Source: Candidatus Methanosuratincola sp.
GTDB lineage: Archaea > Thermoproteota > Methanomethylicia > Methanomethylicales > Methanomethylicaceae
Direction of reading: 5' to 3'
DNA: 64,000 nt
NCBI GenBank assembly: GCA_014361455.1
Contig: JACIVP010000001.1
Coordinates: 186,001-250,000 of the forward strand
In this document: positions 7,740 to 11,811 of the stretch, in pieces
How positions within the stretch are numbered: position 1 is the stretch's first letter
How the letters are laid out: the number at the start of each line of letters is the position of its first letter
Translations under genes and position numbers: made by a program
Notes under the pieces: generated by a model
Told to the model about the DNA's origin: nothing
Seen by the model: only the letters and a program-made list of their open reading frames with translations
Databases searched by the model: none

Positions 7740-7797
7740 ACAGGAAAGATATAAATGTGCCATCCAATCCTTTCCTTAACCGTCAGGAGGATCACCA
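7740..7797 (+). promoter_or_regulatory. Promoter and ribosome site of the aldehyde oxidoreductase gene
   Basis: A TATA-like AAAGATATAAATG at about 7744-7756 is followed by AGGAGG at about 7785-7790, seven bases before a TTG codon. The strong ribosome site selects the TTG at 7798 as start rather than the ATG four codons later, giving the N-terminus MGGYMNRILRVDL, as is usual in this family. Confidence 0.55.
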
Positions 7798-10290
7798 TTG
7801 GGCGGCTATATGAACAGGATACTCCGCGTCGACCTCGCGTCTGGGGCGATCTCCTCAGAGGATCTTGATATGGACACTGCCGCGCATTTCATAGGCGGGA
7901 GGGGCTATGGCGCGAAGGTGCTCTACGACGAGCTGAAGCCTGGGACAGACCCTCTCGGACCGGACAACAAGCTCATTTTCATGACAGGCCCGCTTACTGG
8001 GACGGCTGCGCCCACCTCAGGGAGGTTTTCGGTCTCAACAAGGTCGCCAGCCACAGGGACCGTCTTCGACGCAAACAGCGGTGGGTACTTCGGCGTCGAG
8101 CTGAAGCGGGCCGGATATGACGGCATCATATTTGAGGGGCGAAGCAGCAAGCCCGTCTACCTATCAATAATCAACGGCGAGGCGCGTCTCAACGACGCGT
8201 CCGCCCTCTGGGGCCTCGACACCACGCAGACCGAGGATAGGATAAAGCAGATCGTCGGGGATCAGTTCGCCAGGGTTGCATGCATTGGCCCTGCGGGGGA
8301 GCGACTTGTTAAGATTGCAGCGATAATGAACGAGAAGCACAGGACCGCGGCCAGGGGTGGCGTGGGTGCAGTAATGGGATCGAAGAGACTCAAGGCAATC
8401 GTCGTCAGGGGCAGAGCAGAGATACCACTCGCAAACCACTACGCGTTCATGAGGGAGGTCAAGAGGACGATCCAGGTGCTGAAGGGTCACCCGATAACCG
8501 GGGATGGCCTCGCCAGGTACGGAACATCCATACTCGTCCACATAATAAACAAGGCGGGGGTCTTTCCAGTGAGGAACTACAGCGTGGGCGTATTTGAGGA
8601 GGCCGAGAAGGTTAGCGGGGAATATATGTCTAAGACAATTCTCCGCGGCAAGAAGGGGTGCTTCGCCTGCCCGATCATGTGCGGGAGGATCACCCAGCCG
8701 AGGCTCCCGAGCGGCGAAACGATCGCAACCGAGGGGCCGGAGTACGAGAGCGTCTGGGCCCTCGGCCCAAACTGCGGGATAAGCGACTTGAATGCGATAG
8801 CGATCGCGAACGACCTCTGCAACAAGCTTGGCGTCGACACCATCTCGATGGGCCAGGCAGTGGGGTTTCTCATGGCATGCGCCGAGAATGGGAAGGTCAA
8901 ACCCTCCGATATGGGGCTGGACGCAAAATTCGGGAGTACCGAGGCGCTCCTCAAGCTGATCAGGATGACTGCCTACCGCGAGGGGATCGGGGATCTGCTC
9001 GCCGAGGGCACCAGGAACGCTGCCCGGAAGCTTGACGCTGAGGACTTTGCGATCCACGTGAAGGGGCTCGAGCTACCTGCATACGACCCGCGCGGGGTTA
9101 AGGGTATGGCCCTCTCCTACGCGACCTCGAACAGGGGCGGGTGCCACCTTAGGGCTTTCATGATAATCCCGGAGATCCTTAGCCTGCCGAAGTACCTGAA
9201 CCCGAACTCATACGATGACAAGGCCGCGCTGACCAAAGTGATGCAGGATGTCTTTGCGGTCCTCGACTCCCTCGTCCTCTGCAAGTACACGACGATGGCG
9301 CTCTTCAGCACCTTCGCATTCGAGCCTGACTTCTACGCCAGGCTCCTAACATGCGCGACTGGGTTCTATGTGGACAGGGAGGAGTTCTACAGGATAGGGG
9401 AGCGCATCTACAACCTAGAGCGGCTCTTCAATGTGAGGGAAGGCTTCAGCAGGAAGGACGACGCCCTGCCTAGGCGGTTCACCGAGGTCCCAATGCCTGA
9501 CGGTCCGGCCAAGGGCGAGACAGTCGACATGGATAGGTTATTAAATGAGTACTATGCAGTGAGAGGCTGGGACTACAACGGGGTCCCGTCCAGCAAGAAG
9601 GTGTTGCAGTTGAGTCTGAAGCCAGTCTACGAAGGCCCTCAGCTCCAGGTAGCTATCGACGAGCGCTACCTGAAGGACGCGATGCCGATAGCGGAGAAGG
9701 CATACCGCGGGGGTGCGGATATAATCGAGGCAGGCACCCCGCTGATAAAATCGGAGGGTATGGACGCCGTGCGGACGCTCAGGAAAGCATGCCCGAACGC
9801 CACGATTCTAGCAGATCTCAAGACGTTCGATACTGGTTGGCTGGAGACTGAGCTCGCGGTCGAGGCAGGGGCCGACATAGTGACTGTGATGGGTGCCACA
9901 GACGACTATACGATCTCGGACGCGGTCGGGGCCGCCAGGAAGTACAATGTGAAGGTGATGGTCGACTTAATGAACCTGAAGGATCCGATCTCCAGGGCCA
10001 TCGAGGTCGAGAAGCTTGGCGTGGACATGGTCTGCATGCATGTTGGCATAAGCGCCCAGTCGAGGGAGCGCGAGGTGGACCAGAAGATTGCCCTTGTCAG
10101 GAGCCTAACTGGGAACCTGAAGATCCCGGTCTCTGTCGCCGGGGGGATAAAGCTCGAGGTCGTGCCGCAGATGGTCAGGGCAGGCGCTCGCGTGCTCGTA
10201 GTCGGGGGGGCGATAACAAAGTCGGCCAACCCTGAAGAGGCAACAAAGCGCTTCGTTGAATCGATCAGATCCACTTGGGAAACGATGTAG
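7798..10290 (+). CDS. Aldehyde:ferredoxin oxidoreductase fused to a 3-hexulose-6-phosphate synthase-like domain
   Basis: An 830-residue two-domain enzyme. Residues 1 to about 605 are a full tungsten-pterin AOR. The cluster ligands Cys288, Cys291 and Cys295 (CFACPIMC) and Cys495 (LVLCKY) are present, and the N-terminus (GGRGYGAKVLYDE, TGPLTGT, SGRFSVSTRSP) is typical. After a linker of about ten residues, residues 617-830 form a TIM-barrel domain of the hexulose-phosphate synthase / KGPDC group with IEAGTPLIKSEG (Glu644), ADLKTFDTG (Asp673, Lys675, Asp678), VMVDLMN, HVGIS and VVGGAITK. No stop or frameshift lies at the joint. AOR enzymes oxidise aldehydes to acids with ferredoxin; HPS releases or fixes formaldehyde. 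Coupling the two through formaldehyde is inference. A MoaD-like gene is divergent next door. Confidence 0.9.
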   Translation: MGGYMNRILRVDLASGAISSEDLDMDTAAHFIGGRGYGAKVLYDELKPGTDPLGPDNKLIFMTGPLTGTAAPTSGRFSVSTRSPATGTVFDANSGGYFGVELKRAGYDGIIFEGRSSKPVYLSIINGEARLNDASALWGLDTTQTEDRIKQIVGDQFARVACIGPAGERLVKIAAIMNEKHRTAARGGVGAVMGSKRLKAIVVRGRAEIPLANHYAFMREVKRTIQVLKGHPITGDGLARYGTSILVHIINKAGVFPVRNYSVGVFEEAEKVSGEYMSKTILRGKKGCFACPIMCGRITQPRLPSGETIATEGPEYESVWALGPNCGISDLNAIAIANDLCNKLGVDTISMGQAVGFLMACAENGKVKPSDMGLDAKFGSTEALLKLIRMTAYREGIGDLLAEGTRNAARKLDAEDFAIHVKGLELPAYDPRGVKGMALSYATSNRGGCHLRAFMIIPEILSLPKYLNPNSYDDKAALTKVMQDVFAVLDSLVLCKYTTMALFSTFAFEPDFYARLLTCATGFYVDREEFYRIGERIYNLERLFNVREGFSRKDDALPRRFTEVPMPDGPAKGETVDMDRLLNEYYAVRGWDYNGVPSSKKVLQLSLKPVYEGPQLQVAIDERYLKDAMPIAEKAYRGGADIIEAGTPLIKSEGMDAVRTLRKACPNATILADLKTFDTGWLETELAVEAGADIVTVMGATDDYTISDAVGAARKYNVKVMVDLMNLKDPISRAIEVEKLGVDMVCMHVGISAQSREREVDQKIALVRSLTGNLKIPVSVAGGIKLEVVPQMVRAGARVLVVGGAITKSANPEEATKRFVESIRSTWETM

Positions 10291-10394: not shown

Positions 10395-10961
10395 TCATGC
10401 CTGGGACCCATGGATGCTACTCTTGAGCTCATCCCTGAGGGTTCTGCCGTGGCTGTCCATCGTCACGAAGCAGGGGCCTAGGTTCTTCACCTCGAGAGCC
10501 CAGACCGCCTCCGGGTCACCAAGTTCCTTCCAGTAGACTGCTCTTATGCCGACGACCGCTTTGGCTGCAAGGGCCCCCGCCCCACCGGGGTATTCGGTGT
10601 AGACCGCATGGTACTTCGAGAGCGCACCTAGGGTCCCTGCCCCCATCCCACCTTTTCCGATAATGCACTTTGCCCCCGTACCCGCAATGATCTCCCCTTC
10701 GACCTTCTCCATCCTCATGCTCGTAGTCGGTCCCGCCGAGATGACCTTGGTTCCCTGGACGAGCGGTCCGCAATGGTATATGATGCCCCCGCGGAGGTCA
10801 AAAGGGAGATCCCCCCCAGATCTCAGTATCGCCAGCGCCTTCAGGTGTGCCTGGTCCCTCATCGTGAAGATCTCGCCCGTGATGTACAGTGCGTCTCCGA
10901 CTTGGAGCTGGTCGATCTCGCTCTCGCCAATCCTACCGCTTAGCATGTACGTCTTTCCCAA
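10395..10961 (-). CDS. Class I fumarate hydratase, beta subunit
   Basis: The second subunit (188 residues) of the heteromeric, iron-sulfur-dependent fumarase that interconverts fumarate and malate. Family segments visible are GDALYITGEIFTMRDQAH, GIIYHCGPLV, SAGPTTSMRME, IIGKGGMG, YPGGAGALAAKAV and LEVKNLGPCFVTMDSHG. It starts at TTG 10961, one base after the stop of the alpha subunit, with GGGGAG upstream; the pair is clearly translationally linked. Related L(+)-tartrate dehydratases cannot be ruled out, but fumarase is the usual archaeal function. Confidence 0.9.
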   Translation of the reverse strand: MGKTYMLSGRIGESEIDQLQVGDALYITGEIFTMRDQAHLKALAILRSGGDLPFDLRGGIIYHCGPLVQGTKVISAGPTTSMRMEKVEGEIIAGTGAKCIIGKGGMGAGTLGALSKYHAVYTEYPGGAGALAAKAVVGIRAVYWKELGDPEAVWALEVKNLGPCFVTMDSHGRTLRDELKSSIHGSQA

Positions 10962-10962
10962 G

Positions 10963-11811
10963 TCAGTCTCCCCTCAATATCGCCCCATCCTTCATAACCT
11001 CAAAGGAGATCCTCCTGAGCGCCCAGCACTGAATGCTGACCGCAACGGGGAGGCTGGCGGTGTGGCAGTCTGCCACTTCCATCCTGACACCAAGCGCCGT
11101 GTTCTTGCCGCCGAAACCCATTGGTCCGATGCCGAGTGCGTTGATCTCTCTGAGCAGCTCTGCCTCGAGCAGCCCTGTAAAAACGTCCTCTGATGGCTTG
11201 TCCAGCCTCCTCATCAGGGCCTTCTTGCTCAAGATCGCGGCTTCGTCAAGGCTCCCACCGACTCCGATCCCCACAACGATCGGCGGACAGGGCTTCGCCC
11301 CTGCCTTTCTCACAGTCTGGACTACAAACTCCTTTACCCCCTCGACCGGCCGGTCAGGGTCGAGCATAGTAACGGCGCTCACATTCTCCGATCCTGCTCC
11401 CTTGGCAAGAATCCCTGCCCTGACCGCCCCGTCGGGGCTCGGCTCGAAGTGTATGATCGGGTTGCCCCTGCCTAGGTTGTTGCCAGTGTTTCTCCTCGAG
11501 AACGGATCGACTATATTAGCCCTGAGCGGCACTCTCTCCGTTGCCATCGCAATGCCTTCCATGATTGTATTGCGGATCTTCGAGCACATGCCGTTGGCAC
11601 TAACAAAGAAGACTAAGCTGCCCGTGTCCTGGCACATGGGGATCCCGTTCTCTCTGGCATACCTTATGTTCTCCAGTATTGCCTCTAGGACCTGCCTGCT
11701 GATGCTCCCCTCTTCCTCCTCTTCCCGGCACCTCTCTAGGGCGGACTCGACATCGCGGGGGATCTGGCACTCTATTATCCTGATCAGGTCGGCGATGTTT
11801 TCAGGCTTCAT
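10963..11811 (-). CDS. Class I fumarate hydratase, alpha subunit
   Basis: The iron-sulfur subunit (282 residues) of the two-subunit fumarase. It carries the MCQDTG motif with the first cluster cysteine, further cysteines in KPCPPIVVGIGVGG and SIQCWALRR, and the GRGNPIIHFEPS and GPMGFGGKNTALGV segments. In archaea this enzyme serves a partial reductive or oxidative citric-acid branch. Transcription is leftward from an ATG at 11811. The rightward unknown gene begins 56 bp away, so the short spacer carries both promoters. Confidence 0.92.
   Translation of the reverse strand: MKPENIADLIRIIECQIPRDVESALERCREEEEEGSISRQVLEAILENIRYARENGIPMCQDTGSLVFFVSANGMCSKIRNTIMEGIAMATERVPLRANIVDPFSRRNTGNNLGRGNPIIHFEPSPDGAVRAGILAKGAGSENVSAVTMLDPDRPVEGVKEFVVQTVRKAGAKPCPPIVVGIGVGGSLDEAAILSKKALMRRLDKPSEDVFTGLLEAELLREINALGIGPMGFGGKNTALGVRMEVADCHTASLPVAVSIQCWALRRISFEVMKDGAILRGD

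Follow-up and report, generated by a model that had tools for sequence, protein, structure and literature searches.

Why should an archaeon carry an aldehyde:ferredoxin oxidoreductase (AOR) and a 3-hexulose-6-phosphate synthase (HPS) in one polypeptide? The question is raised by a gene in a 64,000-nucleotide stretch of Candidatus Methanosuratincola DNA (referred to here as the window), which comes from a 1.52-Mb draft genome. In archaea that lack a full pentose phosphate pathway, ribose is made by reversal of the RuMP pathway, with the release of one formaldehyde per pentose, and lineages that use H4MPT trap formaldehyde by means of Fae, which is often fused to HPS. We propose, with a probability of about 0.7, that the AOR-HPS fusion is a bifunctional enzyme of ribose-5-phosphate synthesis, in which reverse RuMP releases formaldehyde that is then oxidized to formate.

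The first-pass annotation had described an AOR joined in frame to HPS by a short linker, and this description holds. An uninterrupted single frame of 830 codons comprises a PfAOR-type half (residues 1-607) and an HPS half (residues 614-826), the former recognized by Pfam and the latter by Pfam and NCBIfam domain models (Table 1). Among orthologues of the fusion, the start codon is either TTG or ATG at an unchanged position, motifs resembling AGGAGG lie upstream of several copies, and linker length is nearly constant in the alignment. Based on a search of related genomes, the same open frame recurs in about 30 archaeal genomes, with protein identity as low as 44%, and separate genes with a stop at the junction, which the annotation had named as contrary evidence, were seen in none of them. 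Because the open frame recurs across genomes of both the order and the phylum, the fusion is not the product of chance or of an assembly error. The identical open frame in about 30 genomes rules out an assembly or frame artifact, and the junction, which is without a stop or a frame change in every copy, rules out two genes joined by read-through or by a programmed frameshift. Named relatives at 93% protein identity include Ca. Methanosuratincola MAGs (Methanomethylicota). By comparison with Ca. Methanosuratincola subterraneus, pS was 0.48 in the AOR half and 0.54 in the HPS half, with pN at 0.038 and 0.035, respectively; that is, synonymous change greatly exceeds nonsynonymous change in both halves.

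Table 1. Positions of the fusion gene, its parts and two related operons (window coordinates, unless a contig handle is given)
Feature	Position	Strand	Remarks
AOR-HPS fusion gene	7798..10290	+	830 aa; TTG start; stop within range; start position common to orthologues
AGGAGG, probable Shine-Dalgarno motif	7785..7790	+	7 bases ahead of TTG; predicted from sequence
AFOR_N, residues 7-205	7816..8412	+	Pfam PF02730, 277 bits (cut-off 29.8)
AFOR_C domains 2 and 3, residues 222-607	8461..9618	+	Pfam PF01314, 481 bits (cut-off 27)
Loop after fourth cluster cysteine, residues 496-509	9283..9324	+	K496, A501, F503 and E509 typical of the fused clade
Linker, about residues 608-613	9619..9636	+	Gap between Pfam domains; about 6 residues
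3-Hexulose-6-phosphate synthase domain, residues 614-826	9637..10275	+	TIGR03128; alignment to 9lj9, 3ajx and 1xbx; invariance; D621, E644, D673, K675, D678, D723, H748, I751, A781
hps-pflB-pflA operon, G005	L116:2153-5824		PFL and activase over NCBIfam cut-offs
hps-pflB-pflA operon, G006	L109:7860-11549		PFL and activase over NCBIfam cut-offs

In the N-terminal half, both AFOR domains are complete, and the cluster ligands and the catalytic Glu/His pair of the AOR family are present. Mapping onto 1aor positions C288, C291, C295 and C495 as the [4Fe-4S] ligands in a CxxCxxxC...C pattern, with the cysteines exactly where they had been annotated, and identifies E317 and H450 as the equivalents of the catalytic PfAOR residues Glu313 and His448. 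These six residues are invariant in 23 of 23 aligned fusions, down to 44% identity. Judged by its sequence, the AOR half is a tungsten aldehyde:ferredoxin oxidoreductase of the PfAOR type. It shares 47% identity with both 1aor (PfAOR) and 9mqx, versus 36% with 1b25 (PfFOR), so that its nearest relationship is not to PfFOR. PfAOR accepts formaldehyde among its substrates. Since the AOR half is closer to PfAOR, an enzyme of broad specificity, than to PfFOR, its family position would allow formaldehyde as a substrate without implying it, and the sequence does not establish formaldehyde use.

The C-terminal half was annotated as an HPS/KGPDC-type barrel with Glu644, Asp673, Lys675 and Asp678 as catalytic residues. 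These positions proved correct, and the active site is of the HPS rather than the KGPDC type. The OMPdecase/HUMPS Pfam match spans residues 614-819, and the NCBIfam model TIGR03128 (RuMP_HxlA) scores 210.7 bits, above its curated cut-off of 200. The DxKxxD motif corresponds to D673, K675 and D678, and in KGPDC numbering E644 is Glu33 and H748 is His136. Positions 112, 139 and 169, which are exchanged in the KGPDC mutant 1xbx, are occupied by the HPS-type residues D723, I751 and A781 instead of Glu112, Arg139 and Thr169; work by Gerlt is said to have found that exchanges at these three positions of KGPDC favor HPS activity. E644, D673, K675, D678, H748, D723, I751 and A781 are invariant in an alignment of 23 fusions, down to 44% identity, and a loss of HPS catalytic residues, which would have spoken against the annotation, is thus not seen. 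At the level of an equivalog match, the HPS half is a predicted 3-hexulose-6-phosphate synthase. That it might be KGPDC or another enzyme of the HUMPS family is suggested by the shared suprafamily, by weak matches to KGPDC models and by the divergent copy in genome G001, which reaches just 104 bits with TIGR03128. Against this, the protein of the window exceeds the TIGR03128 cut-off and falls far short of those of the KGPDC models (108 vs 250 and 96 vs 294 bits), and PHI is encoded in 20 of the 23 genomes of the order. On the basis of the model scores and the HPS-type residues, we rejected KGPDC identity as very improbable.

An AlphaFold2 monomer model of the fusion (pLDDT 86.3, pTM 0.88) superposes on 1aor with a TM-score of 0.94 and on 3ajx with one of 0.90, both normalized by target length. 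Its low-confidence segments within the AOR half are residues 422-429 and 445-464, the latter containing H450.

Our sample of the home order comprised 23 genomes, in which gene absences were scored by six-frame family searches of the draft assemblies. A full open-frame fusion is present in 16 of these, a further genome (G012) has it as two pieces at contig ends, and G001, from another family of the order, has a divergent fusion at 44-46% identity, bringing the fusion-bearing genomes to 18 of 23. It also occurs in 11 more genomes of the phylum and in one named uncultured archaeon; a Bathyarchaeota MAG is likewise among the named carriers. Matches on the plasmids that we searched were to AOR only, with no fusion. 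In phylogenetic trees, the fused AOR domains group together as a single clade (SH-aLRT 90), as do the fused HPS domains (98) with the exception of the long-branched G001 copy; an HPS fragment at a contig end (L084) nests within the fused HPS clade. The HPS half of the G001 fusion (L104:247-2730), despite its 104 bits and its long branch, retains the catalytic residues. Since K496, A501, F503 and E509 are shared between G001 and the fused clade, its AOR half is probably of common origin with that clade. Its HPS half may either have strongly diverged or have been replaced.

The gene content of the order is consistent with pentose synthesis by reverse RuMP. The fusion is the sole HPS found in the home genome, and it is usually the sole HPS across the order. 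PHI over its cut-off and RpiA are each present in 20 of 23 genomes, the transketolase N-subunit in 14 and transaldolase in a single one. The separate genes that the annotation had proposed to look for in the home genome thus resolve as follows: no other hps, a phi gene on contig C90, one transketolase N-subunit and no transaldolase, with RpiA encoded on contig C134. HPS, PHI and RpiA accordingly coexist there with an incomplete nonoxidative pentose phosphate pathway, in agreement with the suggestion that HPS operates in reverse to supply pentose. The accompanying statement that such archaea lack a pentose phosphate pathway stands as to transaldolase, but not as to the transketolase N-subunit, which is present. 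No transketolase N-subunit was found in G001, G004, G020, G021 and G022, each at least 90% complete, leaving HPS-PHI as the obvious source of pentose in these five genomes.

Six-frame family searches detected Fae in 0 of 23 genomes of the order and MCH likewise in 0 of 23, so an H4MPT outlet for formaldehyde is not seen and formaldehyde needs a different outlet. PurP (DUF1246), through which purine synthesis in archaea makes use of formate, is encoded in every one of the 23 genomes. Nearly every genome of the order has two adjacent PurP copies (for example, G000:C57:79615-81026). Outside the order, four fused genomes (G114, G131, G137 and G205) carry a standalone Fae beside the fusion, and seven have MCH. 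The fusion is therefore not a strict substitute for Fae, and we rejected such a role across the phylum.

We infer that the HPS half works in the cleavage direction, that the AOR half acts on formaldehyde and that the resulting formate is put to use. PHI would convert fructose-6-phosphate to 3-hexulose-6-phosphate, which the HPS half would cleave to ribulose-5-phosphate and formaldehyde. The tungsten AOR half would immediately oxidize this formaldehyde to formate with reduction of ferredoxin, and in doing so would clear a toxic product, keep formaldehyde low and pull an unfavorable cleavage. RpiA would convert ribulose-5-phosphate to ribose-5-phosphate, for onward use in PRPP and purines, and the formate could be used by PurP in formate-dependent purine synthesis. 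The fusion would thereby fill the role of Fae-HPS, an oxidoreductase taking the position of Fae. Physical channeling of formaldehyde between the two sites is a further and more tentative suggestion, to which we give somewhat better than one chance in three. We consider unlikely, at a little under one in three, the most extended version, in which formaldehyde stays inside the protein until it is oxidized to formate, one polypeptide yields both ribose-phosphate and the C1 unit of purines without H4MPT, and loss of the fusion is offset by hps together with pyruvate formate-lyase (PFL).

Two other accounts have to be weighed against ribose-5-phosphate synthesis with oxidation of formaldehyde. The enzyme could run forward and add formaldehyde to ribulose-5-phosphate; this formaldehyde might also come from formate, reduced by the AOR half at the expense of low-potential ferredoxin, and the purpose might be detoxification, C1 assimilation or the conversion of salvaged pentose to hexose. 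Condensation is the favored direction of HPS, and AOR enzymes can reduce acids if the aldehyde is removed. In addition, HPS is reversible (PMC5241800), and nucleotide salvage via RbcL has been reported for Methanomethylicia (PMC9723716). However, transaldolase occurs in 1 and the transketolase N-subunit in 14 of the 23 genomes, so that most genomes of the order seem unable to run RuMP as a forward cycle, and a separate source of pentose would still be required. As most of the genomes could not regenerate the acceptor ribulose-5-phosphate, we give the forward direction about one chance in seven.

The halves could instead use unrelated substrates. In that case, the AOR half would oxidize some other aldehyde, such as glyceraldehyde, acetaldehyde or a sugar aldehyde, and fusion would serve mainly to set expression or assembly. 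The nearest solved relatives of the AOR half are indeed AORs of broad specificity, and the loop after the fourth cysteine, which is unlike that of other AORs, could signal a different substrate. This account is difficult to reconcile with a partner that itself releases or uses an aldehyde, with about 30 genomes in which a split copy was not seen, and with an order that is devoid of Fae and MCH; we regard it as improbable, at around one in eight.

The genomes G005 and G006, both of genus g4, provide a further observation on what may happen when the fusion is lost. The fusion was not detected in these drafts, which are 89% and 95% complete, respectively. In both, hps lies directly 5' of a gene for PFL, followed by the activase gene; the PFL proteins score 1153 and 1150 bits with TIGR01255 (cut-off 994), and the activase is over the cut-off of TIGR02493. 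PFL of the TIGR01255 kind is present in 0 of the 18 fusion-bearing genomes, and G005 and G006 alone in the order have it. The HPS of these genomes is far from fused HPS in the tree, which rules out an origin as a split-off half of the fusion, and the operon would be a foreign one that supplies HPS and formate. In G006, which retains another AOR, the operon hps is a few genes away from the position that the fusion has in relatives. It is suggestive that both presumed products of the fusion, pentose and formate, would be resupplied by hps-pflB-pflA after its loss. The replacement probably happened once, within one genus, and so falls short of proof. Separately, a contig of G009 (contig 38, L137:1-4864) carries an AOR beside a glycyl-radical enzyme with a broken frame and an activase that has additional cysteine clusters. 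This would be either a separate kind of glycyl-radical cluster linked to AOR or a contamination of the assembly, and the PFL-like gene of the contig, frame-broken and of different appearance, was excluded as a PFL replacement.

Comparison of gene neighborhoods revealed no conserved operon partner of the fusion and no operon linking it to PHI, RpiA or PurP. Its neighbors are housekeeping genes, among them those for SAM synthetase, CTP synthase, fumarase and NFACT, and the fumarase and NFACT genes follow the G001 fusion just as they follow the fusion in the home family. Genes for a two-subunit fumarase adjoin the fusion on the minus strand of the window (10395-11811), with synteny across the order. 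A CTP synthase gene adjoins the fusion in two other families (L096, L097, L098, L099, L103, L106 and L107) and lies about 4-6 kb from it in the home order (L111, L113, L114 and L115). We interpret the proximity of CTP synthase and the fusion as an old linkage to a gene of nucleotide synthesis.

The first-pass annotation knew of no described fusion of this kind, and we likewise found no description of AOR-HPS in the open-license full-text literature. On the basis of genomes, AOR was suggested to oxidize RuMP formaldehyde to formate in Culexarchaeia (PMC9723716) and to oxidize formaldehyde in Brockarchaeota (PMC8065059), in both cases without a fusion. The idea that AOR oxidizes RuMP formaldehyde is thus already published. 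As to how lineages without Fae or H4MPT might dispose of formaldehyde, the fusion offers a concrete and testable candidate outlet for Methanomethylicia and some relatives. It would connect nucleotide synthesis with a tungsten enzyme, and it provides a defined anabolic partner for proteins of the AOR family, whose usual assignment is to fermentation or detoxification. In these methane-linked archaea, the ribose of nucleotides is probably made without the usual machinery for handling formaldehyde.

Among known AORs, the fusion resembles 1aor, the electron-bifurcating 9mqx and the clostridial 9g7j in fold, cluster cysteines and the Glu/His pair of the active site, at 44-47% identity and with TM-scores of 0.93-0.94 (by target length), and differs from P. 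furiosus AOR and the bacterial AORs in its C-terminal HPS and in the loop residues K496, A501, F503 and E509. With P. furiosus formaldehyde:ferredoxin oxidoreductase it has superfamily and fold in common, although within the family the AOR half sits closer to AOR than to FOR. Among solved structures, the HPS half is most closely related to that of the HPS-PHI protein RuMP_HxlAB (9lj9), with 45% identity and an rmsd of 1.2 over 215 columns, whereas here PHI is a separate gene and the fused partner would act on formaldehyde instead of a sugar. The HPS-MenG/RraA-like fusion (PRK07028), the HPS part of which ranks first among NCBIfam matches to the HPS half, is also an HPS fusion, but its HPS is N-terminal and its partner has no known role in handling formaldehyde. 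An HPS-RraA/MenG-like fusion of about 433 residues is encoded in G205 (L066:835-2136), with frames of similar length in G131, G217, G090 and G223; AOR-HPS is also present in these genomes, which include members of other families. An analogy is offered by Fae-HPS (NF009833/PRK13307) of methanogens and other H4MPT-using archaea, in which HPS is likewise C-terminal to an enzyme that takes formaldehyde. That fusion was argued to capture formaldehyde released by HPS at once during ribulose-5-phosphate synthesis (PMC5241800). The protein described here is not of that family, as its N-terminal part is AFOR, in a home genome without Fae; unlike Fae, which condenses formaldehyde with H4MPT, its partner is a tungsten redox enzyme with formate as the predicted product.
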